Assembly (NCBI RefSeq): GCF_037392515.1
Contig: NC_090291.1
Span: forward strand, 1,142,501-1,206,500
From: Haliotis asinina
Lineage: Eukaryota; Mollusca; Gastropoda; Lepetellida; Haliotidae
Direction: 5' to 3'
DNA length: 64,000 bases
Program-made: the position numbers and the translations under genes
The notes under the pieces: generated by a model
Seen by the model: the letters and a program-made list of their open reading frames with translations, nothing else
Told to the model about the DNA's origin: nothing
Database searches by the model: none
In this document: positions 1-45,400 of the stretch, one piece after another
Position numbering within the stretch: the first letter of the stretch is position 1
Layout: the number at the start of each line of letters is the position of its first letter

Positions 1-96
1 CAATAGGCTAAACAAACAAGACGAAACTCAATCACTTGCACTTATGAGATTCACTGTCGCAGCAATCGGAACACGCCCAGTTATTGTTAATTGCAT

Positions 97-218
97 CCAA
101 TGTGACCGGTCAGCTGACATCAGCTATCATTGCTTGTCACAAGCCTTGATGGCTATGCAAATTGAGCCAGCTTGTGACACGTGGATGGAAGTGGGCGTGT
201 CATCACAAGTGTATAAAG
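97..218 (+). promoter_or_regulatory. Promoter of tandem gene copy 1: CCAAT, octamer, TATA
   Basis: CCAAT at 97-101, ATGCAAAT at 155-162 and TATAAAG at 212-218 stand in this order upstream of the ATG at 276. The octamer is the Oct-1 site characteristic of histone H2B promoters (also found in snRNA genes), and here it lies 49 bp before the TATA box. The same three motifs occur in all four copies, but the copies are so alike that this is not independent evidence. Confidence 0.65.
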
Positions 219-275
219 GCAGTCTTCGTCGCTGCATTGGCATCAGATTTCTGAAATCATCCTACAGTCAACATC

Positions 276-590
276 ATGGAAACGTTCCACCTATACGCCG
301 AACTGTACGAGGCCGAGAGTCGTTTCAAGAAAGCCTGTGAGCAAGTTGTCTTGTTGAATGACAAGCTTGAAGGTCTTCAGCATCGCTATGACAAGGCCCG
401 TCAAGAAAACCACCGTTCGTTCCGTTACAACCTCCGTCTCCGAATGGCCAGTGTGGAAGGCGTTCGCAATGCATACTACGAGTATGCTTGTGAAAAGGCC
501 GAGAAAATAGCTGAACTGAGATATTATGTGGCCGTCAACGCCGAGGTCGACTCTGAAGACTACCAGAGCGACGCCAGCATGGAACACTAG
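276..590 (+). CDS. 104-aa tandem-array protein, copy 1, with histone-type regulatory signals
   Basis: Small intronless gene of unknown function. The predicted protein (starts METFHLYAELYEAE) is rich in Glu, Lys, Arg and Tyr, has no signal peptide or membrane segment, looks helical with possible coiled coil over residues 8-80, and ends in an acidic tail (residues 90-103). It is not a histone and I do not recognise a family. The ATG at 276 is preferred because it lies 58 nt after the TATA box (212-218), giving a short leader. The stop at 588-590 lies 46 nt before a histone-like stem-loop (637-652). The promoter also has CCAAT (97-101) and an ATGCAAAT octamer (155-162). The longer overlapping frame at 44-340 runs through the promoter and is taken as a shadow. 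Confidence 0.72.
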   Translation: METFHLYAELYEAESRFKKACEQVVLLNDKLEGLQHRYDKARQENHRSFRYNLRLRMASVEGVRNAYYEYACEKAEKIAELRYYVAVNAEVDSEDYQSDASMEH

Positions 591-630
591 ATGGGACTTC
601 AGCAGAAACCTTCTTCCTCTTCTCATTAAG

Positions 631-674
631 ACCAAAAGCTCTTGTTAGAGCTACACAAATGTCACAAAAGAATG
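631..674 (+). promoter_or_regulatory. Histone-type mRNA 3' end signal, copy 1
   Basis: A 6-bp stem with a 4-nt loop, AGCTCT-TGTT-AGAGCT, lies at 637-652. It is flanked on the left by ACCAAA and on the right by ACACAAA. The purine-rich stretch CACAAAAGAATG at 663-674 starts about 10 nt after the stem. This is the arrangement of replication-dependent histone mRNAs: stem-loop, cleavage after ACCCA or ACACA, then a histone downstream element bound by U7 snRNA. Differences from the consensus: the outermost pair is A-U rather than G-C, and the loop is UGUU rather than UUUC or UUUU. The nearest AATAAA (397-402 of the second kilobase, 1397-1402) is about 800 nt after the stop. Confidence 0.68.
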
Positions 675-1994
675 CTATGAACATGAAAGTGCTCCATTTC
701 TAATGGCTCGTGAAAACTAAAAGTTTGTACCTCTCAAGAACGTTCATACAGAAACAGATTGTCAACTGAGATGGTCACATTTCATCTGCACTCTCTACAA
801 GTTAACACGGGTGTCGGGAGATTCATTTCTAAGGTTTTCAAATGCACAGGTCCCGTTTATTCACTCCCAAAGTAACAACAAATCCAATGAAAGATACACA
901 GTCCAACTGCCATCAGTGAATTAAAACTATGCCACATAAGTCATTTCCTGCACACCTGTCATGTCGCTGTTTACACATAATTAACACACGTCTGGTCAAA
1001 TAATAATACAGACCGTAACTAACTGCAGTTGCCAACGATTAAGAGTTGCAGTGATTTTCCTAACTGTAAGCAGACGACTAGGCCTCATAAGCATGTGCTT
1101 GTTTCCAGGAGAAGGGGACAATTACTGTCTGAAAATGGAATTGATGAAGTCGAAAATATGCGAGAAGGTATTCCACAGTGACAGGCGTGTCAATTTGTAT
1201 GACTAAATATGCATTGGATAATTGTAAGGCTAGCATTTGAAGATGAATGTGACTGGGCTGCTGTTTTGGTAGAGAGCAGTGGCTTTCTTTTGCCCTTGGC
1301 TTCGTCATTGCAACTTTAGAACGTTGACAAAATAGTGTTTATTTGGCTGTCACGGGGTTTCATTACTCTGTCATGGAAACATAGTCTTGTCACAAGAATA
1401 AAAGTTTGTTATCTTTCGAATAATTGTTCTCAACCACTGAAAGTGCCCTGGATGGACTCTTCTTCTGTAAATTGTCTAGCAGTCTCCAAATGTTACGTGT
1501 AATTCAGGCTTTGTAGGTATGTTGCCTGTGTCTTGACCAACATTTTGGAATTGAATACAATGACGATGAACCTTAAATAATCACAATAACTTGGGTGGAA
1601 ATTGCAGGGCCATGGAGAGGTTTTTCATGTATAAACAACAGATACTGTCACCCTATGTCTCAGTTCCCATACTGATGGTAGGCACTGAGAAGATAGTGTC
1701 TAGCTATCAATCAGCGCCACAATAGGCTAAACAAACAAGACGAAACTCAATCACTTGCACTTATGAGATTCACTGTCGCAGCAATCGGAACACGCCCAGT
1801 TATTGTTAATTGCATCCAATGTGACCGGTCAGCTGACATCAGCTATCATTGCTTGTCACAAGCCTTGATGGCTATGCAAATTGAGCCAGCTTGTGACACG
1901 TGGATGGAAGTGGGCGTGTCATCACAAGTGTATAAAGGCAGTCTTCGTCGCTGCATTGGCATCAGATTTCTGAAATCATCCTACAGTCAACATC

Positions 1995-2309
1995 ATGGAA
2001 ACGTTCCACCTATACGCCGAACTGTACGAGGCCGAGAGTCGTTTCAAGAAAGCCTGTGAGCAAGTTGTCTTGTTGAATGACAAGCTTGAAGGTCTTCAGC
2101 ATCGCTATGACAAGGCCCGTCAAGAAAACCACCGTTCGTTCCGTTACAACCTCCGTCTCCGAATGGCCAGTGTGGAAGGCGTTCGCAATGCATACTACGA
2201 GTATGCTTGTGAAAAGGCCGAGAAAATAGCTGAACTGAGATATTATGTGGCCGTCAACGCCGAGGTCGACTCTGAAGACTACCAGAGCGACGCCAGCATG
2301 GAACACTAG
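1995..2309 (+). CDS. 104-aa tandem-array protein, copy 2
   Basis: The protein is identical to copy 1. The octamer (1874-1881), TATA box (1931-1937) and 3' stem-loop (2356-2371) are all kept. The function is unknown. Identity at both DNA and protein level suggests a recent duplication or homogenisation between neighbouring units. Confidence 0.7.
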   Translation: METFHLYAELYEAESRFKKACEQVVLLNDKLEGLQHRYDKARQENHRSFRYNLRLRMASVEGVRNAYYEYACEKAEKIAELRYYVAVNAEVDSEDYQSDASMEH

Positions 2310-3713
2310 ATGGGACTTCAGCAGAAACCTTCTTCCTCTTCTCATTAAGACCAAAAGCTCTTGTTAGAGCTACACAAATGTCACAAAAGAATGCTATGAA
2401 CATGAAAGTGCTCCATTTCTAATGGCTCGTGAAAACTAAAAGTTTGTACCTCTCAAGAACGTTCATACAGAAACAGATTGTCAACTGAGATGGTCACATT
2501 TCATCTGCACTCTCTACAAGTTAACACGGGTGTCGGGAGATTCATTTCTAAGGTTTTCAAATGCACAGGTCCCGTTTATTCACTCCCAAAGTAACAACAA
2601 ATCCAATGAAAGATACACAGTCCAACTGCCATCAGTGAATTAAAACTATGCCACATAAGTCATTTCCTGCACACCTGTCATGTCGCTGTTTACACATAAT
2701 TAACACACGTCTGGTCAAATAATAATACAGACCGTAACTAACTGCAGTTGCCAACGATTAAGAGTTGCAGTGATTTTCCTAACTGTAAGCAGACGACTAG
2801 GCCTCATAAGCATGTGCTTGTTTCCAGGAGAAGGGGACAATTACTGTCTGAAAATGGAATTGATGAAGTCGAAAATATGCGAGAAGGTATTCCACAGTGA
2901 CAGGCGTGTCAATTTGTATGACTAAATATGCATTGGATAATTGTAAGGCTAGCATTTGAAGATGAATGTGACTGGGCTGCTGTTTTGGTAGAGAGCAGTG
3001 GCTTTCTTTTGCCCTTGGCTTCGTCATTGCAACTTTAGAACGTTGACAAAATAGTGTTTATTTGGCTGTCACGGGGTTTCATTACTCTGTCATGGAAACA
3101 TAGTCTTGTCACAAGAATAAAAGTTTGTTATCTTTCGAATAATTGTTCTCAACCACTGAAAGTGCCCTGGATGGACTCTTCTTCTGTAAATTGTCTAGCA
3201 GTCTCCAAATGTTACGTGTAATTCGGGCTTTGTAGGTATGTTGCCTGTGTCTTGACCAACATTTTGGAATTGAATACAATGACGATGAACCTTAAATAAT
3301 CACAATAACTTGGGTGGAAATTGCAGGGCCATGGAGGGGCCTTTCATGTATAAACAACAGATACTGTCACCCTATGTCTCAGTTCCCATACTGATGGTAG
3401 GCACTGAGAAGATAGTGTCTAGCTATCAATCAGCGCCACAATAGGCTAAACAAACAAGACGAAACTCAATCACTTGCACTTATGAGATTCACTGTCGCAG
3501 CAATCGGAACACGCCCAGTTATTGTTAATTGCATCCAATGTGACCGGTCAGCTGACATCAGCTATCATTGCTTGTCACAAGCCTTGATGGCTATGCAAAT
3601 TGAGCCAGCTTGTGACACGTGGATGGAAGTGGGCGTGTCATCACAAGTGTATAAAGGCAGTCTTCGTCGCTGCATTGGCATCAGATTTCTGAAATCATCC
3701 TACAGTCAACATC

Positions 3714-4028
3714 ATGGAAACGTTCCACCTATACGCCGAACTGTACGAGGCCGAGAGTCGTTTCAAGAAAGCCTGTGAGCATGTTGTCTTGTTGAATGAC
3801 AAGCTTGAAGGTCTTCAGCATCGCTATGACAAGGCCCGTCAAGAAAACCACCGTTCGTTCCGTTACAACCTCCGTCTCCGAATGGCCAGTGTGGAAGGCG
3901 TTCGCAATGCATACTACGAGTATGCTTGTGGAAAGGCCGAGAAAATAGCTGAACTGAGATATTATGTGGCCGTCAACACCGAGGTCCACTCTGAAGACTA
4001 CCAGAGCGACGCCAGCATGGAACACTAG
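3714..4028 (+). CDS. 104-aa tandem-array protein, copy 3, diverged
   Basis: Same gene as copies 1 and 2 with four amino-acid changes: Q23H, E73G, A89T and D92H. I see no synonymous change in the reading frame, so this copy does not look protected by purifying selection. The octamer, TATA box and 3' stem-loop (4075-4090) are intact. It may be a copy drifting away from function, or one under altered selection. Confidence 0.62.
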   Translation: METFHLYAELYEAESRFKKACEHVVLLNDKLEGLQHRYDKARQENHRSFRYNLRLRMASVEGVRNAYYEYACGKAEKIAELRYYVAVNTEVHSEDYQSDASMEH

Positions 4029-5422
4029 ATGCGACTTCAGCAGAAATCTTCTTCCTCTTCTCATTAAGACCAAAAGCTCTTGTTAGAGCTACACAAATGT
4101 CACAAAAGAATGCTATGAACATGAAAGTGCTCCAGTTCTAATGGCTCGTGAAAACTAAAAGTTTGTACCTCTCAAGAACGTTCATACAGAAACAGATTGT
4201 CAACTGAGATGGTCACATTTCATCTGCACTCTCTACAAGTTAACACGGGTGTCGGGAGATTCATTTCTAAGGTTTTCAAATGCACAGGTCCCGTTTATTC
4301 ACTCCCAAAGTAACAACAAATCCAATGAAAGATACACAGTCCAACTGCCATCAGTGAATTAAAACTATGCCACATAAGTCATTTCCTGCACACCTGTCAT
4401 GTCGCTGTTTACACATAATTAACACACGTCTGGTCAAATAATAATACAGACCGTAACTAACTGCAGTTGCCAACGATTAAGAGTTGCAGTGATTTTCCTA
4501 ACTGTAAGCAGACGACTAGGCCTCATAAGCATGTGCTTGTTTCCAGGAGAAGGGGACAATTACTGTCTGAAAATGAAATTGATGAAGTCGAAAATATGCG
4601 AGAAGGTATTCCACAGTGACAGGCGTGTCAATTTGTATGACTAAATATGCATTGGATAATTGTAAGGCTAGCATTTGAAGATGAATGTGACTGGGCTGCT
4701 GTTTTGGTAGAGAGCAGTGGCTTTCTTTTGCCCTTGGCTTCGTCATTGCAACTTTAGAACGTTGACAAAATAGTGTTTATTTGGCTGTCACGGGGTTTCA
4801 TTACTCTGCCATGGAAACATAGTCTTGTCACAAGAATAAAAGTTTGTTATCTTTCGAATAATTGTTCTCAACCACTGAAAGTGCCCTGGATGGACTCTTC
4901 TTCTGTAAATTGTCTAGCAGTCTCCAAATGTTACGTGTAATTCGGGCTTTGTAGGTATGTTGCCTGTGTCTTGACCAACATTTTGGAATTGAATACAATG
5001 ACGATGAACCTTAAATAATCACAATTACTTTGCAGGGCCATGGAGGGGCCTTTCGTGTATAAACAACAGATACTGTCATCCTATGTCTCAGTTCCCATAC
5101 TGATGGTAGGCACTGGGAAGATAGTGTCTAGCTATCAATCAGGACCACAATAGGCTAAACAAACAAGATGAAACTCAATCACTTGCACTTATGAGATTCA
5201 CTGTCGCAGCAATCGGAACACGCCCAGTTATTGTTAATTGCATCCAATGTGACCGGTCAGCTGACATCAGCTATCATTGCTTGTCACAAGCCTTGATGGC
5301 TATGCAAATTGAGCCAGCTTGTGACATGTGGATGGAAGTGGGCGTGTTATCACAAGTGTATAAAGGCAGTCTTCATCGCTGCATTGGCATCAGATTTCTG
5401 AAATCATCCTACAATCAACATC

Positions 5423-5698
5423 ATGGAAACGTTCCACCTATACGCCGAACTGTACGAGGCCGAGAGTCGTTTCAAGAAAGCCTGTGAGCAAGTTGTCTTG
5501 TTGAATGACAAGCTTGAAGGTCTTCAGCATCGCTATGACAAGGCCCGTCAAGAAAACCACCGTTCGTTCCGTTACAACCTCCGTCTCCGAATGGCCAGTG
5601 TGGAAGGCGTTCGCAATGCATACTACGAGTATGCTTGTGAAAAGGCCGAGAAAATAGCTGAACTGAGATATTGCTGTGGAAAATCCACATCACTTTGA
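5423..5698 (+). pseudogene. 104-aa tandem-array gene, copy 4, 3'-truncated
   Basis: The promoter and first 83 codons match copy 1. At about 5672 the sequence changes to a Tc1-like transposon end, so the frame finishes with eight unrelated residues and a stop at 5696-5698. The 3' stem-loop is lost. The transposon boundary therefore also marks the end of the array. Confidence 0.85.
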
Positions 5699-6215
5699 GA
5701 AATTGGCATTCGGTGAAGGACTTTCAAGGTTAAATCATTTTGTCATGTCTTGACCTTGTGACTCGCCGTTGAAAGAATGTATGCTGGAGATTACCAATCT
5801 TCTGTTGCCAGGCGTCTGAATGTTAGTCTGAGGAAGATATCATGGCTTGCAGTTCGTTGCAACCAAACAGGTGTAACAAATTACCGTCCCCGTACAGGCA
5901 GACCTCGAGTTACCACCACTGCAAACCAAGATCGGTACATTATGGCACTACTGTTGCGTGATTATACTGCCTCTGGTGAGCGCACAACAACAATGGTGCC
6001 TGCACTTCAGAGGATATCCGGTCAAACTGTACGGAACAGGTTGAAAGAGATTGGTCTGAGAGCTAGGAAAACCGACGTCAGGGTCGTGCTACGTCGTCAC
6101 AATCGCTCTCAACATCTCCGTTATCTGAAAGTATCCCCTTGGTTGTACAGACATTACCTTTTTCTACATGGTGTAAAATTTCATGCACTAAAGTCTATTT
6201 GTGGACGAGTTATAC
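5673..6215 (+). mobile_element. Tc1/mariner-superfamily transposon fragment (Tc1-like)
   Basis: The frame at 5777-6223 encodes the N-terminal DNA-binding part of a Tc1-like transposase: a helix-turn-helix (SVARRLNVSLRKISWL), the linker GRPRVTT, and a second helical region ending RISGQTVRNRLKEIGLRAR. The catalytic DDE domain is missing, so this is a 5' fragment. Its left edge is the break in array copy 4, and begins with the short palindrome GTGGAAAATCCAC. I find no matching right terminal repeat. It cannot transpose by itself. Confidence 0.8.
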
Positions 6216-6379
6216 ATGTTTGACAATTGACAATATTACAGTTTCGCAACAGATTCCTCATCTATGTGTTTCTTTTTTCGACCTTCTTTTTTCGAGATAG
6301 TACAGTACTGCACACGAATCTCTATCTTACTGATGACAGCAGCTTGTTAAAAGGAATGATTGTGACGTTCAGTCACTTA

Positions 6380-8239: not shown

Positions 8240-9125
8240 CAAATTCGCTACATTTGGAAACCTAAGCGTTTTCTCACGAATTAGAGGCCCACTTAATGTA
8301 GTTTACAAAATGTCTTGTTCATGTATTGCAGAAAGGCTTAAAAAAGTTCTACCTATTCTAAGTAATAGTGACCAAATTGGATTTATGTCCAATAGATATA
8401 TTGGTGACAACATAAGAATTGTTTATGATGTTTAGTTTTTTAACAGAATCACAAAATATTCCAGGTATGTTATTAAAAGTTGATTTTGCTAAAGCATTTG
8501 ATTCTGTTTCATGGACTTTTATACAGAAACATTATCTTTCTTCGGCTTTGGACCTTTCATAAGAAGGTGGATTGAAGGTTTTTTTATGAGGATATTTAAT
8601 CTTGTATTACTATAAATGGCTAAATGTCCTATTCTTTTGGGGTTCTAAGGGGGTGTAGACAGGGAGACCCCTTGTCGCCGTATATTATTCTGCTGTGAGG
8701 GGGAATATTGGCAGGCATTGTGCGTGCAAGCAAGGATATAAAGGGCATAGAGGCAGATTATACTGACTTTCTTTTTGATGGGAGCAAATGTTCTCTTCAA
8801 GCTGTTGTTGAAGTCTGTTGTGGATGGCTGTGCCTGTATGTCAGGTTTGAAGATTAATTATGATAAATCCCAGGTAATATGGAATGGCGGTATGAAAAAC
8901 AGTGCAAAAAGATATATACATGTATCTCATTTAAAACGTCCGTGGACCCCCTCAACATTCACTATTTCAGATATTGTTCAGTGCAATTATAGCTCAAAAC
9001 TTTTTGAATTAAAACAGGTGATGAATAAATGGATAATCAAAATTTTAATCCCGCTTCGAAAGATTGCTTTGATCAAATGGTTATATATGTCCAAACGTAA
9101 AACGCGATTTGGTGGCCCAAAATAA
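8240..9125 (+). mobile_element. L1/Tx1-like LINE, reverse transcriptase fragment, degenerate
   Basis: The plus-strand pieces, in several frames, read AERLKKVLPILSNSDQIGFM, RYIGDNIR, LLKVDFAKAFDSVSW, GCRQGDPLSPYI and MSGLKINYDKSQVIW, in the order of an L1-clade reverse transcriptase. The YADD-like catalytic block is degraded to ADYTDF near 8753. Multiple stops and frameshifts make it a dead copy. Confidence 0.8.
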
Positions 9126-12558: not shown

Positions 12559-12999
12559 TGAATGACCTACAATACCTGTCTGTAACCTTCCCTTCGGGGG
12601 AGACCAAAATTACGTATACTTTATACATACGATTGTATTTGTCATGTGCAGAGTGTCGGAATATTAAGAATTCCTGTCCGTAAACCCAGCAATGTATGTA
12701 TGTATGTATGTATGTATGTATGTATGTATGTATGTATGTATGTATGTATGTATGTATGTATGTATGTATGTATGTATGTATGTATGTATGTATGTATGTA
12801 TGTATGTATGTATGTATGTATGTATGTATGTATGTATGTATGTATGTATGTATGTATGTATGTATGTATGTATGCCTGCAGGCAGGCAGGCACGCAGGCA
12901 GGCAGGCAGGCACGCACGCACGCACGCACGTATGTATGCATGCATGTCATTCTACTATTTACGTTGTAGACTGGGAATAAAAATGGAAATGGAAAAAAA
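12559..12999 (+). mobile_element. SINE-like repeat copy 1 with a TGTA microsatellite inside
   Basis: The 5' block (12559-12690) and 3' block (12951-12999, ending GGAAATGGAAAAAAAA) match the 5' and 3' blocks of a second copy at 13140-13473 with roughly 75-80 percent identity by eye. The middle is replaced by a long tetranucleotide repeat. The A-rich end suggests retroposition. The family is not identified. Confidence 0.55.
12692..12946 (+). repeat. ATGT tetranucleotide microsatellite with a CAGG/CACG tail
   Basis: About 46 uninterrupted copies of ATGT occupy 12692-12874, followed by imperfect CAGG and CACG units to 12946. The open frames found here on both strands (poly Met-Tyr-Val-Cys, Ile-His-Thr-Tyr) are artefacts of the repeat. 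Confidence 0.98.
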
Positions 13000-13599: not shown

Positions 13600-15928
13600 T
13601 TACACACGAGATGCCAATACCTCCACTCCAACTAATGTACACAAGTACATATGACCACGACCACCAACGCACAGTCCCAATGGACACTGGACACCATCCT
13701 GTGATGTCAGTATGTTTCTAACAAACTGTCCTGACTCTGTCAGATGGATGACTCTGTGTTGTGAGTAGTCTGTCACCAGGATGTCGCCTGTCCTGTTGCT
13801 TGTAATACCACGTGGAACCTTCAGTGCTGTATCTCCCGTAGGTCTGTAGTTAAACACCACATCTCCCCCGGGAGTCAGACACACGACACACTTGGTCCCA
13901 CCATCAGACACCAGGATGTTTCCTGTCCGCGTGGTACAGAGGAAGTTAGGATACTTTAAGATGCCTCCACCTTCGTGGTTTTGACAAACTGACTTCAACA
14001 CGTGTCCCGACATATCCAGGATTTCAACACAGGGAGGGGACTCGGAACTTGCTGCTAGTGTAGAAGGTGTCAGAGACGTTATGCCCCAGTACTGTTTGCT
14101 GGTTGTGATTGTCGACAGCAGCATTAGGTTAGGGTTCACTTCAGCTGTTACAATCTGACAGGTCTCCCGGACAGTGACAGCCACCTGGTTGTGTGCCAGC
14201 CTTGTTATACCATAGGGTGTACCTTCCAGACTGAGCTTGCTGTGACCTGCCTGACTGTTCCTGGTGTACAAGGACTTCACGCTGTTGTTGTTGAAGTCCG
14301 TTACTACCACTGTGTCTGAACCATTCACCTTTAACACCGTCACGTCAGTAGGGGATCCTTCCATGGCATCTCCTAATACTCTCACGTCAATGGTGTCCTG
14401 TAACACAGGAGCAGCCTTCAGGTCCAGCTCATCGTCATACTGGACGTGTATCTCACCCAGATGGAGATCGTCGAGTGCTCTACTCAGCTTGTCTGTTTCC
14501 TGTCTAAATGATATCTTGTCTATTCTTACCTTCTCCTTCACGTTTACGGCTCCGACAGCCTCCACATCACCGGCCTCACATCCCTGATACATCTCATACA
14601 CATCCATGTCACACTCAGATTGTAGAGCCTGGTCTATCAGCTCAGCCTGTTGTTGGTACATCTGTACTGACATCTCACCTGACTTTATGTCTGCCTTCAG
14701 TTGGCCAATGTGTCTGTCAGACATCTCTTTCAGTTCAGACAGAAGTTTCTGTTCCTTGGCTTTGATCACCTCTATTGCTGTGAGACTTGCAGACTTGATA
14801 TTTGATTCTAATTGTAAATAATGCGCCAGTTCTTCGCCGACTTTGGAGTTTTGTTTTCCAACATGTGTTATTATCTCATTGTGTTTCTTTAACAAGCTCT
14901 CTTTACGTCTTTCCAGATCCATTTTCAGTGCTGGAATCTCAATCTCAATCTCAACAACCAAGCCACATCTTCTGTGATATATAATGCAGCATGTTTGACA
15001 GACAGCTGTTTTACAATCTTTGCAAATATATTTGATATTCTCGTCCTTGTGAACTTTGCACATGACCTTTCTGTTAACCTTGACCTTTGTCTCGCCAGAC
15101 AAGTCAATTACGTGATGGTGACGGGTAGATGGGATTTGTTGGTGCAGCCATGTACATCGTTCACATAGTGTGTCGCCACAAATTGAACACCACGATGTAG
15201 CTGAAGTTGTCCCCCCTTTCTCTTTACAATAAATGCAGAAAGTCGCATCTGAAATAGTTATGCAATAATGTGGAGTTGTGGATGTTTTATCGTTTCGCGT
15301 TATATTACTTCATGTTGCACATCATGTAAATAAATGGGAACATGCACCAGAACACTGGAGTAAGCCCCAGACGGAAATGTCATAAAACTACTGTTGGATT
15401 TGTCTCACTGGTAAACGATACATGGTTCTTGGGTCATGTGACTTCTGGTATTCTGTCTGCTTTTCGCTAAGCACAAGCACACAAAAGGGTTATATTTTCA
15501 TAAACGTTCAAATAAGAGTGGTTTTAGATAGTTCGTAGTAAACTCTCTTCTCAACATGGCACACATTTAAATGCAATTAAATGTAGATAACCGTATAGGA
15601 GGAACGTACATACTGGTACCAACCACAAACATTCACCTTTAGATCGTGGGCAAAACGAGTCCAACAGTCCCTGGATGACAAAGATAGGCTTGACGTCATC
15701 CGCCCACTCCTCCACTGGTCGCACGGGGTCAGACACTTTCGTCATCTTGCTGCAGAATGGACACAGGAGAGACTTGGCACTGATGGCTTCTGGTCTGGTT
15801 TTGGTGTAGCTTACGACGCATTTTCGACAGAAGGTGTGATTACACACAAGTGTACAGGGCTTGTCAAACAACTCTGTACATATGGTGCATGTCAGGAAAT
15901 GTTCTGTCAACTTCTGGGTGGTCGTCAT
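13600..15928 (-). CDS. TRIM-like protein: RING, two B-boxes, coiled coil, NHL propeller
   Basis: Two coding exons: 15928-15637 and 15248-13600, joined across a 388-bp GT/AG intron in phase 1 (codon G|AT). The product is 646 aa. Residues 14-59 form a C3HC4 RING (C14, C17, C29, H31, C34, C37, C56, C59), expected to bind an E2 and give E3 ubiquitin ligase activity. A B-box-1-like zinc motif follows at about 101-146 (CIYCKEKG...CSICGDTLCERC), then a B-box 2 (CKVHKDENIKYICKDCKTAV) and a charged coiled coil to about residue 330. The C-terminal half repeats the NILVSDGGT and GDILVTDYSQHR type of NHL/beta-propeller blades, which bind protein or RNA in TRIM2, TRIM3 and TRIM71. The start MTTTQKL is the last Met before the RING; an upstream in-frame Met at 15991 is possible. 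Such genes are expanded in molluscs, so I give no symbol. Confidence 0.87.
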
Positions 15929-18017: not shown

Positions 18018-18745
18018 CCTCAGACCTTATATGGCAACCATTAGAGTACTCCAACTACATACATCTATATCCTGACATCAGCACTAATATGGCAACCGTT
18101 AAAGTACTCCAACTACATACATCAATATCCTGACATCAGCACTGATATGGCAACCGTTAAAGTACTCCAACTACATACATCAATATCCTGACATTAACAG
18201 TGATATGGCAACCGTTAGAGTACTCCAACTACACATATCAATATCCTGACATCAGCACTGATATGGCAACCGTTAAAGTACTCCAACTACATACATCAAT
18301 ATCCTGACATCAGCACTGATATGGCAACCGTTAAAGTACTCCAACTACACATATCAATATCCTGACATCAGCACTGATATGGCAACCGTTAAAGTACTCC
18401 AACTACATACATCAATATCCTGACATCAGCACTGATATGGCAACCGTTAAAGTACTCCAACTACATACATCAATATCCTGACATCAGCACTGATATGGCA
18501 ACCGTTAAAGTACTCCAACTACATACATCAATATCCTGACATCAGCACTGATATGGCAACCGTTAAAGTACTCCAACTACATACATCAATATCCTGACAT
18601 CAGCACTGATATGGCAACCGTTAAAGTACTCCAACTACATACATCAATATCCTGACATCAGCACTGATATGGCAACCGTTAAAGTACTCCAACTACATAC
18701 ATCAATATCCTGACATCAGCACTGATATGGCAACCGTTAAAGTAC
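18018..18745. repeat. 58-bp minisatellite, about 12-13 copies
   Basis: The unit contains ATATGGCAACCGTTAAAGTA and ATCCTGACATCAGCACTG. The first units are the most diverged and the last seven are nearly identical, the pattern expected if the array grows by recent duplication at its right end. There is no spacer variation, so it is not a CRISPR. Confidence 0.97.
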
Positions 18746-18997
18746 CCACACTACGCAATAACGATGTATGCATATATAGTACAGATACATCAGGAGAAAA
18801 ACTCGAAGTCACAAGGTCGATCAAAGAAGCAATAAAAGTAGACGCTTCATACACCATGCTCAGTCTAAACATTGCAGTATATTAGGTGCCTGGAGATGAC
18901 CTAACAGTTAGACGAACCATGGTGGTGTTACCTGTACACAGTGGGACAGGTGGGTAGCGTTGTACCTGGAATAGACACAGTCCCTGTGAAAACACAC

Positions 18998-19844: not shown

Positions 19845-21975
19845 TGTTGTGCTGCCGTGTGCCTCCCGCTTATACCGCCATGTCAACAGGTGAATTATGG
19901 GTCCATAGACACTGTTGTGCCACCTTGTCAACAGGTGAATTATGTGTCCATGGACACTGTTGTGCTGTCCTGTGCCTCCCACTTATACCACCATGTCAAC
20001 GGGTGAATTATGCATTCACAGACACTGTTGTGTTACCCTGTGCCTCCCGCTTATACCGCCATGTCAACGGGTGAATTATGGGTCCATAGAGACTGTTGTA
20101 CTGCCCTGTGTCTCCCGTTTATACCACCATGTCAACAGGTGAATTATGGGTCCATAGAGACTGTTGTACTGCCCTGTACCTCCCGCTTATACCACCATGT
20201 CAACAGGTGAACTATGGGTCCATAGAGACTGTTGTACTGACCTGTGCCTCCCGCTTATACCACCATGTCAACAGGTGAATTATGGGTCCATAGAGACTGT
20301 TGTACTGACCTGTACCTCCCGCTTATACCACCATGTCAATAAGTAAATTATGGGTCCATAGAGACTGTTGTACTGACCTGTGCCTCCCGCTTATACCACC
20401 ATGTCAACAGGTGAATTATGGGTCCATAGAGACTGTTCTACTGACCTGTGCCTCCCGTTTATACCACCATGTCAACAGGTGAATTATGGGTCCATAGAGA
20501 CTGTTGTACTGACCTGTACCTCCCGCTTATACCACCATGTCAACAGGTGATTTATGGGTCCATAGAGACTGTTCTACTGACCTGTGCCTCCCGCTTATAC
20601 CACCATGTCAACAGGTGAATTATGCATCAGTAGACACTGTTGTGCTGTCCTGTGCCTCCCGCTTATACTGCCGTATCAACAGGTGAATTATGCATCCATA
20701 GACACTGTTACACTGCCCTGTGCCTCCCGCTTATACCACCATGTCAACGGGTGAATTATGCATCAATAGACACTGTTGTGCTGTCCTGTGCCTCCCGCTT
20801 ATACTGCCGTGTCAACAGGTGAATTATGGGTCCATAGACACTGTTATACTGGCCTGTGCCTCCCACTTATACCACCATGTCAGCGGGTGAATTATGGGTC
20901 CATAGAGACTGTTGTACTGACCTGTACCTCCCGCTTATACCACCATGTCAATAAGTAAATTATGGGTCCATAGAGACTGTTGTACTGACCTGTGCCTCCC
21001 GCTTATACCACCATGTCAACAGGTGAATTATGGGTCCATAGAGACTGTTCTACTGACCTGTGCCTCCCGTTTATACCACCATGTCAACAGGTGAATTATG
21101 GGTCCATAGAGACTGTTGTACTGACCTGTACCTCCCGCTTATACCACCATGTCAACAGGTGATTTATGGGTCCATAGAGACTGTTCTACTGACCTGTGCC
21201 TCCCGCTTATACCACCATGTCAACAGGTGAATTATGCATCAGTAGACACTGTTGTGCTGTCCTGTGCCTCCCGCTTATACTGCCGTATCAACAGGTGAAT
21301 TATGCATCCATAGACACTGTTACACTGCCCTGTGCCTCCCGCTTATACCACCATGTCAACGGGTGAATTATGCATCAATAGACACTGTTGTGCTGTCCTG
21401 TGCCTCCCGCTTATACTGCCGTGTCAACAGGTGAATTATGGGTCCATAGACACTGTTATACTGGCCTGTGCCTCCCACTTATACCACCATGTCAGCGGGT
21501 GAATTGTGTGTCCATAGACACTGTTGTGCTGCCCTGTGTCTCCCGTTTATACCACCGTGTCAACAGGTGAATTATGCATCCATAGACACTGTTGTACTGC
21601 CCTGTGTCTCCCGCTTATACCACCATGTCAACAGGTGAATTGTGTGTCCATAGACACTGTTGTGCTGCCCTGTGTCTCCCACTTATACCACCATGTAAAC
21701 AGGTGAATTATTTGTCCATAGACACTGTTGTGCTGCCCTGTGTCTCTCGCTTATACCACCATGTCAACAGGTGAATTATGCATCCATAGACACTATTGAG
21801 CTCCTCCATGCCTCCCGCTTATACCACCATGTAAACAGGTGAATTATCCGTCCACAGACACTGTTATACTGCCGTGTGCCTCCTGCTTATATCACCATGT
21901 CAACAGGTGAATTATGTGTCCATAGACACTGTTGTGCTGCCCAGTGCCTCCCACTTATACCATTATGTTAAATGG
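19845..21975. repeat. 68-bp minisatellite, about 31 copies, with a 612-bp higher-order duplication
   Basis: The unit contains CCTGTGCCTCCCGCTTATAC and CCATGTCAACAGGTGAATTA. Blocks starting near 20340 and 20952 repeat each other at an offset of 612 bp, exactly nine units, showing a recent block duplication inside the array. A single outlying unit lies at about 19340-19400. The series of 60-70 codon open frames here are repeat artefacts. Confidence 0.96.
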
Positions 21976-36400: not shown

Positions 36401-39400
36401 TTCACAATCATCACAGATCTTAAATTGTCATAAAATTCCCCTGACTATAGCCAGATCTTTCCTTCAACAGTACAAGACGGCATCTGACTTTAAAATCTGA
36501 CCATTGTAGTTAAGCCATGGTCAGCTTGGCCAGTCAGTGAAACAATGGAAATCACTGAGAGCTGGGGCAAGGATTGTTGACAGCAAGCAGTGTGACAATT
36601 AGTGGAGGTTAGACTGAAAGTTACAAGCCTTACTAAGCAGAGCTTTGGACTAAGAGTAAAATTAAGTAGGAGGCATTACTGAGGTTCTTACAGGTGTTCT
36701 TATTGTTAATAGAGTAAAAGTAATTACATGGAAACAATGCCATCCAGGTTCATAACTGAAAACTGTGTACACACATATACATGCACGCACAAAAGCATGT
36801 TGACATAGGGGTATCTGGGGACAGTTGTATGGGTGGGGTACTCTGGTATAAAATTTGGACCCATGCTAGCCCAACTACAATAATGTGTAAATAGTGATTG
36901 TATGTAATACTGTATATTTGGTCAGAATGACAACCTCGGCACCTGTCTACAGATGATACACCATCTACTGACAGACAACTGTGTCCAGCATCGTCACTTC
37001 ACAAGTCTCCTCACTAAGGAGGTCAGTCCTTGGCTGATGTTTTCAATTTTGAAAAAAGAAACTCATCATGAATTTAACCCTCACATTCTTTCTACATCTT
37101 TTAATCAGCAATATTGGGCACAAGAAAATACAAAACAAAAGACTACTGTATATGACAGAAAAGATCCCACCTTGAGTTAATACTTTTGTATCCCTCACAA
37201 TTTTTGAGAATTAAAAACATTTAAAGAATAGGATTTGGACATTATCACAAATTGTTTTCTGAATCTGCTGGCCAGTGAATGTTTGAATTTCTTTCAGGAT
37301 GTTCTTCCTCCAGAATTACAGTGGTGCCTTCACAGTGAAGACATCTTGGGGCTTGGTACTTATATTTCCAGGTTGGTATATCGGTAATATCTAGCAGTGT
37401 GGATGACTGTCATAGGGATTTATCTATAGCAGATTCTTTAAAAAAAAACAGCATCATCATACTATCATTGTTCTGCAATATACTTTTTGTTGTTTTTCTA
37501 TCCAACAATCAAGCCATGATTGTATTCACTTGCATCAGTCAGCAGATGGCTTGAGGGAGTAAGGAGGTAACTTTGTCCACTGTTTGATATAAGTTCATGT
37601 AAAATAATAATCAACAGTATTTTTTTTATCAATGTAGACATTTTGTGTCATTAACCACATTTCTGGCAAAGAGTTGTTTGTTTACTTGCCGCCATGGTTA
37701 CTATAATATACATGTAGTATGACTGAGGCATAAAACAACATGCGTTCACTAGTAGTGTTTCATGTGTAAGTTAGACTTCCAACTGAGAAATTGTTAAGGA
37801 TTCAAGTGGTTTTTATTTTTTTAGTACCAAATTGTTCTTGCAGGAAGATGACTGAGCCCCAGTTTGTGAGAAAGTTTAGTACAAACATGTACAAACTTTG
37901 TAAGCAAAACAACCCTGAGAGCAACATTAATGTCAAGAAGCAAACAAATGCTGCACTTTCTGGTAGGTGCAAGGATTCCAGAGAATAACGTTCATTGTTT
38001 CAGTATGCCCAAAAGAAAAGTGTGTTTTTACCCCTCTCAACACATGCCGTTTTGAGCTGTGAATTATTGGTTTTAATGCTTAAGGATGTTTCTATTCAGA
38101 GTACTCTTGTGAGCTTCTAGTTCTAGTCTGATACTGATTATTCTAGGAATATTCAGCTTCCTTGTCAACTCGGGCTTTCCAGAGAAGAAGGACAAGGAAG
38201 CCGCGTTCCGGAAAGTAAGTATACAGCATCATGTCCCAGAGAAAGGTGTTCCATACAGCCTTGTCTTTCTGAATAGAGTTATGTCCCTTATGACCACAGG
38301 ATGTGCTACAATTTGGTTGGTCAGATCTCACTTTGATGTAACTGTTACTCACTGAATAGATGGACAGTGGAGTAGCGGAGAGGGTAGAGTGTTAAATCGT
38401 CAGACAGAAGACCTGGGTTTGATTCCCCTCATTTGTACAGCGAGTGTCTCCCACCATGATATTGGTTAAACAGTGCTTGAAATGATGTCAAACCGTACTC
38501 CTGTAGTACTGAATGTATAATCAAACACAACAAAGGCCTTTTAGGGTTTATATGATCCTTTCTCACTGGCTACAGAAAATCATATAGCCGTTAAGAATGT
38601 CAATGTTTTATGGAATGGATTTGTTTGATTGATGTATACCATAGTTGTCCTATTAAAGATCCTGCACTAAAAGCTCCCCCTGATAAACTTCTATACAGAA
38701 CTGTATGTAATCTTTACAAATGCAATCCACAGAAATGCCATGTAATTGCCTTGTGACTATTACCAAAAATGTTATTCTTCAATTTTTCAACTATACATGT
38801 GATGTGTACAGGTTTAATAAACATACCTTTCCAGTCAATATTCTGATTGCACAGAGTCCTTGTAACAGTAAATTTGTTATGCTAAACTTGGAAACAGACC
38901 CCTCTATTCAACAAAATACTAGTTTATATGGTTACCATCTGTTGCAGGTTGCTGCAGCTATTCTGGATGATGTCATCAGAGGTCAGTAATATTATGTGAA
39001 ATTTGAACATAGTGTGCACACTTCTCAAAATTGTTTAGGTCAGTGGTATCAGTTTCTGCAGAAAAATATTCTCATTTGTGTGCCATTGTACACAGTGATC
39101 TCAGAAGAAAGGTGGTCGTGATACCTTACCATAGACTCACAGCTGGCATAGCACTAAGGTGATCGTAAACCCCATACTTTGATATAGAGTCATGGCTGGC
39201 ATAGCACTAAGATGATCGTAACCCCCATACCTTAATATAGACTCATGGCTGGCATAGCACTAAGGTGATCGTAAACCCCATACTTTAATATAGACTCATG
39301 GCTGGCATAGCACTAAGATGATCGTAACCCCCATACCTTAATATAGACTCATGGCTGGCATAGCACTAAGGTGATCGTAAACCCCATACTTTAATATAGA

Positions 39401-42400
39401 GTCATGGCTGGCATAGCACTAAGATGATCGTAACCCCCATACTTTAATATAGACTCATGACTGGCATAGCACTAAGATGATCGTAACCCCCATACCTTAA
39501 TATAGACTCATGGCTGGCATAGCACTAAGATGATCGTAAACCCCATACTTTAATATAGACTCATGACTGGCATAGCACTAAGATGATCGTAACCCCCATA
39601 CCTTAATATAGACTCATGGCTGGCATAGCACTAAGGTGATCGTAAACCCCATACTTTGATATAGAGTCATGGCTGGCATAGCACTAAGATGATCGTAACC
39701 CCCATACCTTAATATAGACTCATGGCTGGCATAGCACTAAGGTGATCGTAAACCCCATACTTTGATATAGAGTCATGGCTGGCATAGCACTAAGATGATC
39801 GTAACCCCCATACCTTAATATAGACTCATGGCTGGCATAGCACTAAGGTGATCGTAAACCCCATACTTTTTTATAGACTCATGGCTGGCATATTCCTACG
39901 GCTGCTTTGAACAATGTCACCTTGGAGAAAATTGGCCTAAAGATATCTGCTGGAACTTCTGCTGCATATTTATAGATTTTTGCACCCAGACCCTCGATCA
40001 CTAAACCGAGTTTAAGACATGATGGTGACATCTTATTGAAACATGATGAAACAAGAGTGCTGATGAAACTAGGTCCTCAAACACCTAATTATACACCAAC
40101 TGATATGTGTGCAAGTCATGTGACATTTAACCCTCTTGTGCCTCACACAGCTTGGATTATCCAGGGTAATAATAGTAAGATTATATTTGTGCACTTTTAG
40201 CAGACATGAAGCCTGGAATGGTGCCTTATAAATATTCTGTTGTTAAATTACATGCTTGTGAACATGATATGAAATAAAACATAGACACTGGTCCTGTATT
40301 CATTAGAAACGTTGAACATGCCTCAATTTCATGCTTTTTGTTATTTTTACTTCCAACCTTGTGAGTACCACATGTATGGCAGGGTAGTTATAGTTCACTT
40401 AAACGCTGGGTGTCTATTTTCATGCATATTTTCACATGGACAATACAGGCTGTTCAGGAATAATTCAATCAAAACTATAAAGCTTAGGGAATATAGTTGC
40501 CTGTGATTGAAAACACGGATTGTTCATAATCTGGGACATAACATTTCAGCTGTACTAGACGGAGATGATGAGCATGTGGTTCTATTTGTGGGACTAACTT
40601 ACACTGAAGACTGTCTGAACCAAGTCAGCTTCAAGAAGTTCTGTACCCACACCCTCTCCCTTCTCATGAGCTACAAACCAAGTTTGAAAGGTGAGTCCAA
40701 CTTGCTGTATACCCTTCTGATTAGTCACACCACAGTATGAAATGTGAAACCTTTAAAGTAAACCCTATTGATCAACATCAGTACAGTGTTAAGGTGAAAC
40801 CTTTAAAGTAAACCCTGATCAACATCAGTACAGTGTTAAGGTGAAACCTTTAAAGTAAACCCTGTTGATCAACATCAGTACAATGTTAAGGTGAAACCTT
40901 TAAAGTAAACCCTGTTGATCAACATCAGTACAGTGTTAAGGTGAAACCTTTAAAGTAAACCCTGTTGATCAACATCAGTACAGTGTTAAGGTGAAACCTT
41001 TAAAGTAAACCCTATAGATCAACATCAGTACAGTGTTAAGGTGAAACCTTTAAAGTAAACCCTGTTGATCAACATCAGTACAGTGTTAAGGTGACACCTT
41101 TAAAGTAAACCCTGTTGATCAACATCAGTACAGTGTTAAGGTGAAACCTTTTAAGTAAACCCTGTTGATCAACATCTGTACAGTGTTAAGGTGACACCTT
41201 TAAAGTAAACCCTATAGATCAACATCAGTACAGTGTTAAGGTGAAACCTTTAAAATAAACCCTGTTGATCAACATGAGTACAGTGTTAAGGTGAAACATT
41301 TACGGTAAACCCTATAGATCAACATGAGTACAGTGTTAAGGTGAAACCTTTATAGTAAACCCTATAGATCAACATCAGTACAGTGTTAAGGTGAAACCTT
41401 TAAAGTAAACCCTGTTGATCAACATCAGTACAGTGTTAAGGTGAAACCTTTAAAGTAAACCCTGTTGATCAACATCAGTACAGTGTTAAGGTGAAACCTT
41501 TAAAGTAAACCCTGTTGATCAACATCAGTACAATGTTAAGGTGAAACCTTTAAAGTAAACCCTGTTGATCAACATCAGTACAGTGTTAAGGTGAAACCTT
41601 TAAAGTAAACCCTGTTGATCAACATCAGTACAGTGTTAAGGTGACACCTTTAAAGTAAACCCTGTTGATCAACATCAGTACAGTGTTAAGGTGAAACCTT
41701 TAAAGTAAACCCTGTTGATCAACATCAGTACAGTGTTAAGGTGAAACCTTTAAAGTAAACCCTATTGATCAACATCAGTACAGTTTTTAGGTGAAACCTT
41801 TATAGTAAACCCTATAGATCAACATCAGTACAGTGTTAAGGTGAAACCTTTAAAGTAAACCCTGTTGATCAACATCAGTACAGTTTTTAGGTGAAACCTT
41901 TAAAGTAAACCCTGTTGATCAACATCAGTACAGTGTTAAGGTGAAACCTTTAAAGTAAACCCTGTTGATCAACATCAGTACAGTGTTAAGGTGAAACCTT
42001 TAAAGTAAACCCTGTTGATCAACATCAGTACAGTGTTAAGGTGAAACCTTTAAAGTAAACCCTATTGATCAACATCAGTACAGTTTTTAGGTGAAACCTT
42101 TAAAGTAAACCCTGTTGATCAACATCAGTACAGTGTTAAGGTGACACCTTTAAAGTAAACCCTATAGATCAACATCAGTACAGTGTTAAGGTGAAACCTT
42201 TAAAATAAACCCTGTTGATCAACATGAGTACAGTGTTAAGGTGAAACCTTTATAGTAAACCCTATAGATCAACATCAGTACAGTGTTAAGGTGAAACCTT
42301 TAAAGTAAACCCTGTTGATCAACATCAGTACAGTGTTAAGGTGAAACCTTTAAAGTAAACCCTGTTGATCAACATCAGTACAGTGTTAAGGTGAAACCTT

Positions 42401-45400
42401 TAAAGTAAACCCTGTTGATCAACATCAGTACAGTGTTAAGGTGAAACCTTTAAAGTAAACCCTGTTGATCAACATCAGTACAGTGTTAAGGTGAAACCTT
42501 TAAAGTAAACCCTGTTGATCAACATCAGTACAGTGTTAAGGTGAAACCTTTAAAGTAAACCCTGTTGATCAACATCAGTACAGTGTTAAGGTGAAACCTT
42601 TAAAGTAAACCCTATAGATCACTGTATCAACTGTGAGGTGTGTGTTGTATTTCCTTCAGATTTCATCTGGGTCAACTGTAACTGTGCTTTGTGTTTTCAG
42701 TTTCCCAAGCATTTAAACAACAAGCCCAGTGGAAATCAGCAAAAGTGTCAGACAAGATTTCCAACCTGTACAAACAGGTACTGCTACCTTTTCATCCCAC
42801 TTGTTATGATCAGATATGCTTGTTGTGGTTCATATTTTATAGATTTTGGTATCTTTTGATGCTTCTGACCTTGGAATTATGACCAGTGCTCAAGATATTT
42901 TCTCAAGCAGTTGCGTATTTACTTCCATGTCTGTTTGCACATTAATGTTTAATTGCATTTCTTGAGAAGTAACCAGAATTTTGTATATTCCCACTAGTTT
43001 GAAGAACAGGGTACTTTCACACAGAGTTTCCTTACTGGGTGTAATTAATCTTTCTAAATATGTAAATATTAATGCTTCTCAAGAGATTTCAGTAATTCTG
43101 ATAATGCCAAATAGTTGGCAGCCATTTTTGAACACTCAACATGGAAATACTAGTCATGTGACTACTACGGTAAACTCCATATGATGGCTACGGCTGTAAT
43201 AGTATGTGTATATATAGGATTTGCTTAACATTTGCTAACACTGTTGTAGAGTTTGGGCGCCACAATGAATTATCATATGCAAGACAATTTAGTTAATTAA
43301 GTAAAGTATGCAAAGTATGAAAGACCTATTGGGTTTTAAGTGATTTTTGTTCGTTTTATTTTTTGTACTCCCAGATTTGTAATTAATAGAGTAAATTTGA
43401 TTTTTATTGAGTAAAATACATAAATACACTCCTTATCCAGAGCTCTGTAAGACAAATCAGCTCACTTCAAACACAGTTCCACCTTAATGCACACTGACTT
43501 AACGGTGTTTGGTCATATGTGACCTGAAAAGAACTGTAGACTGAATGTATCTTGTAGTCTCTATGAAGATGAAGGTTCTGGGATGGGGCAGGATCTTCCC
43601 TACACACTGTAGAACAAGATTACTAGATTGATACGTGACTTCACCTTGACCCTCAAACATGGGTGTCCCCGAACCCTCAAATATTGATTTTAAGAGTCCT
43701 TGCGGACAATGTGAAGGAAGTAACAGCCCAGATAGGTGTGCATTGTGATAATTTCTTTAGAGCCCAAAATGAATCATCACACATGTCAACTGATGGATAA
43801 GATTATGCATGTAACTGCTCTGAAAGTCAGAGTGAGTGAGTGTGGTTTTACACTGCTTTTAGCAATATTCCAGCAATATCACGGCAGGGGACACCAGAAA
43901 TGGGCTTCAGACATTGTACCCATGTGAGGAATTGAACAAGAGTCTTTGCCATGACAAGCTTAATCACTAGGCTACCCCACTGCCCCTAGCAAGGTTGTAG
44001 ATGTGTTGTTTTATGACAAGGAACAATTTGCTTCCCTTTTGGTGCAGTGAATTTACTATTTATTTTTTTTTTCATCTTTATTTATTTTTTCTTTTTTTGC
44101 GTTCATTCTCTGCATTTGTGTGTACTGGATGAACGTTTACACGTGATATAAAACCCTGGTGATAGGATGACCAGACTCTGTCACATGGTTAATTGTGTGT
44201 CACCCTTGATGGGGTGAACCATTATTGTTCAAAGGACTCGTGCATCGTATAACCGAGCATGTGTGTCATCTGTGTGCTGTATGACCCCTGTACATTATAT
44301 GACCTGTAATCTGTATGACAGTATGTTGCTGTATGATTGATGACCCATTAACTGTATGATTGGTATGAGGTGAATGCTGTATGACTGTTCAGGACTTGGA
44401 GACTATAACCGATAATCATGCATCATCAGTATGCTATACAACCTATATGACCTGTACATTATATGACCTGAACATTATTTGACCTGTATGATTGCCTCAT
44501 ATCTCATGAAACAGTTGATGTGTTAAGTGATGGCACCTGTATCCCAAGGATGTACCCATCAGTGGAGAGGTGATGTAACTCAGTTCTATCCTTTGAAAAT
44601 ACTCCAGTGCTGTCTGTCTGTGTCGGTCTGTCAACACAAGACAGGATCTTCCAGAAACCTGTCAGGGTGTTCTATTGTACATGCAGTTTACAATTGCACC
44701 TTGTTGATGATGTCCAGTGGATACAGACTGTGTTTTATATATGTATGGATGACAACATCAAAGGTCGTACCCATTCAAAGATGCGTTAAGACCATGACCA
44801 GCCCAACCAAGTGACAACAGGTGTAGCTTCTCACAACTTGAAACAGTTTGTTTTTAGAGAAAGTGCAGGTATCATCTATCAGTGGCAGCCAGGATGTAAA
44901 ATCTATACCCTTCACAGACAGTGTAACAGATACTGACGTTCTGTTCTCTAACCAGGAAGAACCAATACAAGGACAAAACTCAAAGAAGCAGATGCATCGG
45001 AAGATGGTGCTCAGCCCAAATGTGTGTATCCTGTTGATACACGATATATCAGCACAGAAAATAGAGGAAGCTGTCTTCCTGACAGCTCTTCACTGATGGG
45101 GAAACATCCCAAACTGACCTACATCCCGGTTCATGAGGGCAGGGACAGGTAACCAGTATAACGGGGACGGATGAGTGATGAGTTGGAACCAGGTACCTGT
45201 CTCTGTACCTGTACCCGTTATGATCATGTGACTAATTCATTTAACAATGTGACATACGATTCTTTCATGATTGAAAGGACGTACTGCCTTTGAAGATGTA
45301 GGTATGATGAACAGTCACCTGTTTTGAATATAATATGTCATCGTAAAGATATTGCAAAACTCAAATAGTTTGGATCTGTCCCAAACACGCAGTGGATATG

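Follow-up and report, generated by a model that had tools for sequence, protein, structure and literature searches.

Can a gene that encodes no histone carry the 3′ end of a replication-dependent histone gene? The question is raised by a tandem array at the left end of a 64,000-nucleotide stretch of Haliotis asinina DNA (the window), which lies on contig C12 of the 1.14 Gb genome searched here. Two papers (PMC2642717; PMC12775136) state as a rule that the stem-loop type of mRNA ending is otherwise confined to histone genes. According to PMC2642717, H2A.X and the H2A variants of bdelloids have both a stem-loop and a poly(A) signal; these are also non-standard users of the histone stem-loop, but they are histones. 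The titles and opening lines of abstracts returned by searches of open-licence papers mention no non-histone gene with a histone 3′ end and nothing on the family described below, and a literature search with some of the locus tags of Mya and other relatives returned no work on function or 3′ ends.

The array comprises three full units and a truncated fourth (Table 1), the tandem arrangement given in the preliminary description. All of the elements listed there for each 1.72 kb unit (CCAAT, octamer, TATA box, frame, stem-loop, ACACA and purine-rich element) are in place. Unit 3 differs from units 1 and 2 at more sites, including four codon changes, all of which are replacing and none silent; one of them, Q23H, falls at an otherwise invariant column. 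The earlier caution that near-identical copies do not provide independent evidence is correct, and for this reason we relied instead on a second, diverged array, on histone genes elsewhere in this genome and on relatives in other species. At the level of DNA the observation is confirmed: the gene is tandem, has a single frame, encodes no histone and carries a 3′ end of histone type.

Table 1. Coordinates of the array and its elements within the window.
Feature	Position	Strand	Remarks
Tandem array, right edge	1-5672	+	continues to the left of the window; array matches reach C12:1086848
Tandem unit 1	1..1719	+	1719 bp; unit phase arbitrary
CCAAT	97..101	+	altered in array 2
Octamer ATGCAAAT	155..162	+	also at 1874, 3593 and 5302
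TATAAA	212..217	+	64 nt 5′ of the ATG; also at 1931, 3650 and 5359
Frame, unit 1	276..590	+	104 codons; ATG at 276, stop TAG at 588-590
Histone-type 3′ element, unit 1	632..678	+	full-length RF00032 match, below threshold
Stem-loop AGCTCT-TGTT-AGAGCT, unit 1	637..652	+	46 nt 3′ of the stop; 6-bp stem, 4-nt loop
ACACA, unit 1	653-657	+	adjoins the stem-loop
Downstream element TCACAAAAGAAT (candidate U7 site)	662..673	+	same word in histone genes of this genome
Purine-rich word CACAAAAGAATG	663-674	+	overlaps the downstream element; position agrees with the preliminary description
AATAAA	1397..1402	+	only AATAAA on the + strand of unit 1; 745 nt 3′ of the stem-loop
Tandem unit 2	1720..3438	+	1719 bp; 4 sites differ from unit 1
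Frame, unit 2	1995..2309	+	protein identical to that of unit 1
3′ element, unit 2	2351..2397	+	stem-loop 2356-2371; downstream element from 2381
Tandem unit 3	3439..5147	+	1709 bp; 10-bp deletion
Frame, unit 3	3714..4028	+	protein 96% identical
3′ element, unit 3	4070..4116	+	stem-loop 4075-4090; downstream element from 4100
Unit 4, truncated	5148..5672	+	promoter and 83 codons, without the 3′ end; match ends at 5672
Frame, unit 4, truncated	5423..5671	+	first 83 codons

Directly past the truncated unit, a Tc1/mariner-like transposase fragment was recognized by eye at 5777-6223. Further along the window, inspection of the open reading frames by eye revealed a Polinton/Maverick-like set of DNA polymerase-, integrase- and capsid-like frames (46381-59995), a decayed LINE with the reverse-transcriptase-like string GCRQGDPLSPY (8645-8690), and a 569-codon open frame on the minus strand (13600-15309) with a B-box/NHL (TRIM-like) look. 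Satellite blocks are located at 18029-18754, 19920-21962, 39131-39892, 40744-42621, 45759-46205 and 60108-60734; those at 45759 and 60108, 14 kb apart, have a 34/167-bp unit in common. A perfect ATGT microsatellite of 45.8 copies occupies 12692-12874.

The Rfam family Histone3 (RF00032) aligns with the array element over the whole model (1-46), including both the hairpin and the downstream part, with 28.3 bits (E 2e-6 for the 201 bp searched). Its three matches across the whole window, each with E 6e-4 (64 kb and 4227 families), fall at the 3′ ends of the three full units. Scores for this gene over the window and array 2 range from 28.1 to 29.4 bits, below the gathering score of 34 bits; at that score the window yields no match, and neither do the stretches beside the arrays (L045-L049) or three array samples. 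The departures from the usual stem-loop are an A-T at pair 1 and a G as the second loop letter. The second stem letter, a G that contacts an SLBP arginine according to PMC10388802, is retained in the AGCTCT stem. The predicted fold of the element is the hairpin, but shuffles reach an equal folding energy in 14 of 200 cases for a 49-nt segment and in 3 of 200 for one of 27 nt, so that folding energy alone is modest evidence. The word TCACAAAAGAAT is found at the three array 3′ ends and nowhere else in the window. As in histone genes, a stem-loop soon after the stop is accompanied by a purine-rich downstream element, the copies are tandem, the frame is uninterrupted, and the nearest AATAAA lies far beyond the stem-loop.

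The histone genes of the same genome offer the closest comparison. A search of the genome with histone H4 gave 27 matches. Twenty-four of them are identical over the whole protein and located on C11, C27, C40 and C103; three are weaker, one on C40 and single ones on C10 and C13. None lies on C12, the contig that carries the arrays. There are two kinds of core-histone cluster, with H4 genes spaced at 3580 bp (C27, C103) or mostly at 4919 or 4983 bp (C11, C40), and the H4 copies in them match the query fully except for one partial copy on C40. The 3′ ends were read from one stretch per cluster type, L054 (3672 bp, C103) and L055 (5185 bp, C40), which together contain nine elements, including two identical H4 elements at both ends of L055.

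These H3, H4, H2A and H2B clusters resemble the array in being tandem and in having a 6-bp stem and 4-nt loop soon after the stop, but they encode histones, which the window gene does not. The distance from stop to stem is 26-35 nt in the eight of nine histone elements whose stop could be placed, versus 46 nt in the window gene. Their Histone3 scores range from 33.3 to 40.5 bits, and one of the nine (33.3) is, like the window gene, below the cut-off. All nine read GGTCCT TTTC AGGACC; the loop is thus TTTC, whereas that of the window gene is TGTT or TGTC. The downstream element begins 8-9 nt past the histone stems; four of nine have TCACAAAAGAAT exactly, and the remaining five agree with it at 9-11 of 12 letters. 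In the window gene the exact word begins 9 nt past the stem. One H3 element and the window gene have 21 consecutive letters in common, CAAATGTCACAAAAGAATGCT. When AGCTCT/AGAGCT is compared by eye with GGTCCT/AGGACC, pairs 1, 3 and 4 are changed on both sides and all are still paired (from histone to this gene, G-C to A-T at pair 1, T-A to C-G at pair 3 and C-G to T-A at pair 4). The general animal histone stem is GGCTCT/AGAGCC, which differs from AGCTCT/AGAGCT at pair 1 only; the two-sided changes may therefore lie on the histone side. A search of the genome for a U7 gene gave no match, with the control equally silent. In our view, the likeness to the resident histone genes argues more strongly than any other result that the 3′ end probably works as one of histone type and is not a look-alike.

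When the genome was searched with the protein, 373 candidates came up and the best 150 of them were scored. Every one of these 150 spans residues 1-104 with no stop codon and lies on C12; damaged copies may be missed in such a sample. By hand count, at least 32 scored copies belong to array 1 (1.087-1.147 Mb) and at least 118 to array 2 (1.440-1.681 Mb). Some array copies are truncated. In the fetched stretches, the stem-loop and downstream element are retained in 68 of 69 full-frame copies with a readable flank. The loop is TGTC in all 15 array 2 units and in 50 of 68 elements when both arrays are pooled. The consensus of 17 array 1 units was compared with that of 30 array 2 units; array 1 units agree only 95% with their own consensus, position by position, some of them being shifted by small indels. 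Between the arrays, the frame has 6 changes in 315 positions (four silent and two replacing codons) against a spacer substitution rate of 10.9% (P 1e-9). The 3′ element (1/47, P 0.03) and the octamer region (2/62, P 0.03) have also changed more slowly. For the TATA box (0/6), and for the stem-loop (1/16) and downstream element (0/15) each taken by itself, the rate is not significantly below that of the spacer.

The preliminary description had read the locus as the combined promoter and 3′-end design of histone genes, especially H2B. The 3′ half of that reading is supported at the level of sequence, by a stem-loop and a downstream element that matches that of the histones in the same genome; the H2B-type promoter is not supported. 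The octamer occurs eight times in the 64 kb (both strands), four of these in array promoters, while CCAAT (96 occurrences) and TATAAA (72) are common words. Upstream of this gene, the genome has the octamer in 66 of 68 copies, an exact TATAAA in 56 of 68 and CCAAT in only 19 of 68. Two H2A genes and one H2B gene of this genome have no exact octamer in the 190 nt upstream, and an H2B-like promoter is accordingly not supported; TATAAA is present upstream of two of the three, at 53 and 69 nt. In relatives with over-extended N-termini, the octamer with one mismatch allowed is not above shuffles (3/7 versus 2.5 expected; reverse, 2/7 versus 2.7), and conservation of the octamer and CCAAT between species is not supported. 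The TATA box fares better: a TATAAA-compatible site lies 55-78 nt 5′ of the ATG in 14 of 21 relatives versus 2.0 expected from shuffles, a count for which the search range was widened to -78 after P0200 had been seen at -76 and which excludes six proteins whose start was not recognised.

The encoded protein is, as first described, not a histone: it has no histone match and is predicted to be a two-helix hairpin. The AlphaFold2 model consists of two long helices (3-43 and 47-100; pLDDT 90), and a Mya member has the same predicted hairpin (2-43 and 47-86; pLDDT 84). The sole Pfam match of the window protein (E 0.024) is unrelated and below its cut-off, and Pfam matches over 61 members are scattered and weak. 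A PDB sequence search with the single protein found no match; a PDB profile search gave weak unrelated matches (best E 0.21), with CENP-S, a histone-fold protein, at E 0.65. Fold comparison (ESCRT-III, prefoldin, ING and other helical hairpins) revealed generic hairpin likeness only. The tip of the hairpin is basic, with a mean charge of +4.9 (74 members) and +7.5 (99 members) in two family types, and the tail is acidic (mean about -6). VEIV-like letters precede an acidic/serine run in 90 of 99 members of the RNM type, the bivalve-like one, a combination that resembles a SUMO-interacting motif.

A search with the window protein found 79 proteins; a 61-member profile raised this to 574 with E no higher than 0.01, of which 120 were listed. 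With P0100 as query, 178 proteins were found (120 listed), and 206 sequences were assembled overall. Named hosts among the matches listed are the bivalves Mya arenaria, Mizuhopecten yessoensis and Dreissena polymorpha and the limpet Patella caerulea, whose uncharacterised proteins (MAR_017281 and others) belong to the same protein family. Judging from these matches, the family is present in both gastropods and bivalves. Several Mya arenaria members have close locus tags on one chromosome, which, together with sequence clusters of up to 135 members, points to clustered copies there too. In a rough tree (44 rows, 73 columns; bootstrap not settled), the bivalve-named rows form one clade (100/99), with the window protein apart.

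No DNA of relatives was found in viral contigs, genome contigs or phage/plasmid tblastn searches. Their 3′ flanks were read through proteins in which a lost stop or a frame shift lets the frame run into the flank; such copies may be pseudogenes. Two sets of tails were left out: long ones taken to be natural acidic tails, distant members or internal duplications (P0042, P0047, P0076, P0077, P0079, P0080, P0081), and short or altered ones that do not extend to the site (P0115, P0120, P0147, P0180, P0195). Fourteen read-through tails reach the site and two of them (P0108, P0125) end inside it. Of the 12 that run past it, ten allow RGCYCTTNTNAGRGCY at every position (equalled by 0-6/1000 shuffles each), a pattern fixed after some tails had been viewed; with P0128, P0151 and P0198 originating from one or two contigs, these are not ten independent events. 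The site is not matched in P0182 and P0184 (12 of 14 letters). Scored against the strict pattern GGCTCTTTTNAGAGCC, the ten compatible tails match at 13-15 of 15 letters, a result equalled by 0-40/1000 shuffles. Fully compatible positions number 11 of 68,569 in all 206 proteins, ten in read-through tails and one in P0028; in six-frame peptides of window positions 6301-64000 there are 3 of 198,848. By subtraction, the site lies 32-52 nt past the usual stop in the six tails with the stop lost and no frame shift.

Direct alignment with the 3′ flank of the window gene gave two clear cases, the P0078 tail KKLFSELHKFPKRML against window frame 0 QKLLLELHKCHKRML and the P0100 tail ALLRATQISRKKAI against window frame 2 ALVRATQMSQKNAM (shuffles as high, 0/1000 for each). 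P0128 and P0185 follow with 13/1000 and 16/1000, and the alignments of the other 10 of 14 tails are unconvincing (35-665/1000). The string ACGGCCCTTC[AT]CAGAGCCAACACAAATATCT[AC]GAAAGAAAGCC is common to two frames of related bivalve-type tails, and it does not fold into the hairpin. In seven of the ten matching tails, stem pair 4 cannot pair, because the codons force C opposite A or T; these are the bivalve-type tails P0117, P0128, P0139, P0140, P0144, P0151 and P0198. The mismatch in all seven looks like a stable feature rather than random decay. Either these tails are from dead copies, or the bivalve hairpin tolerates the mismatch, or the element has an altered use. We regard the sequence evidence as strong in Haliotis asinina and as good but mixed across molluscs.

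Several other explanations have to be weighed against that of a functional gene with histone-type processing. The array could be a satellite of dead gene copies, as the four replacing changes without a silent one in unit 3 (one at an invariant residue) and the truncated copies might suggest. The open 104-codon frame in every one of the best 150 of 373 candidates, the slow change of the frame relative to the spacer and the 574 relatives recovered with the profile make this the least probable of the alternatives. Hardly more probable is that the conserved block acts as some other regulatory hairpin, or as an element of the DNA itself, with no relation to SLBP and U7. The weak pairing in bivalve-type relatives would suit this, but hairpin and downstream element agree with the histones of the same genome in both order and spacing.

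Improbable, yet to be taken more seriously than these two, is a relic: a histone 3′ end once acquired, or a gene derived from a histone unit, with the element now unused and polyadenylation occurring downstream. It would account for the RF00032 score below threshold, for the AATAAA at 1397 and for the unpairable pair 4 in relatives. It fits poorly with retention of the element in all but one of the readable copies, with a downstream element letter-identical to that of present histones next to a stem that pairs throughout, and with compatible sites in gastropod- and bivalve-type relatives, 32-52 nt past the usual stop in the six tails without a frame shift. A pair of alternative 3′ ends, in which the stem-loop is used in S phase and a poly(A) site at other times, carries more weight than any of the foregoing, though we consider it rather unlikely. 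Dual processing of H2A.X mRNA is reported in PMC7807067, and the unit does contain an AATAAA downstream; that signal is distant, however, and nothing links it with this gene. This possibility overlaps with the explanation that we favor.

We consider it very likely, on the strength of the 3′ end, that the array is a functional, high-copy non-histone family whose pre-mRNA is processed like that of replication-dependent histones. Pol II would start about 30 nt past the TATA box, producing a transcript with a short leader and a frame without an intron. SLBP would bind the stem-loop, the U7 snRNP would pair with TCACAAAAGAAT, and cleavage directly past ACACA would leave an mRNA without a poly(A) tail. 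Production would then track that of histone mRNA, in S phase and as a bulk supply in oocytes or early embryos; such a bulk supply would explain the many tandem copies. A specific role for the two-helix hairpin protein, as a partner linked to chromatin or replication and required at the same time as histones, is a tentative suggestion that we hold to be possible but doubtful. The broader picture is likely, if less secure than the reading of the 3′ end: an ancient mollusc non-histone family with more than 100 tandem copies, whose tail-less mRNAs are made by SLBP and U7 in synchrony with those of histones. It would be the first non-histone client of this pathway in animals, probably acting as a partner of histones in chromatin or at the cleavage stage.

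If this is correct, a non-histone gene with the full 3′ design would break the rule that such ends belong to histones only, and the pathway would be transferable to another gene and kept across the split between gastropods and bivalves. As the stem differs from local histones at three pairs and the bivalve-type stems seem mismatched, the family would offer an experiment of nature on the requirements of SLBP and U7. It would also direct attention to a protein required by molluscs in amounts and at times like those of histones.
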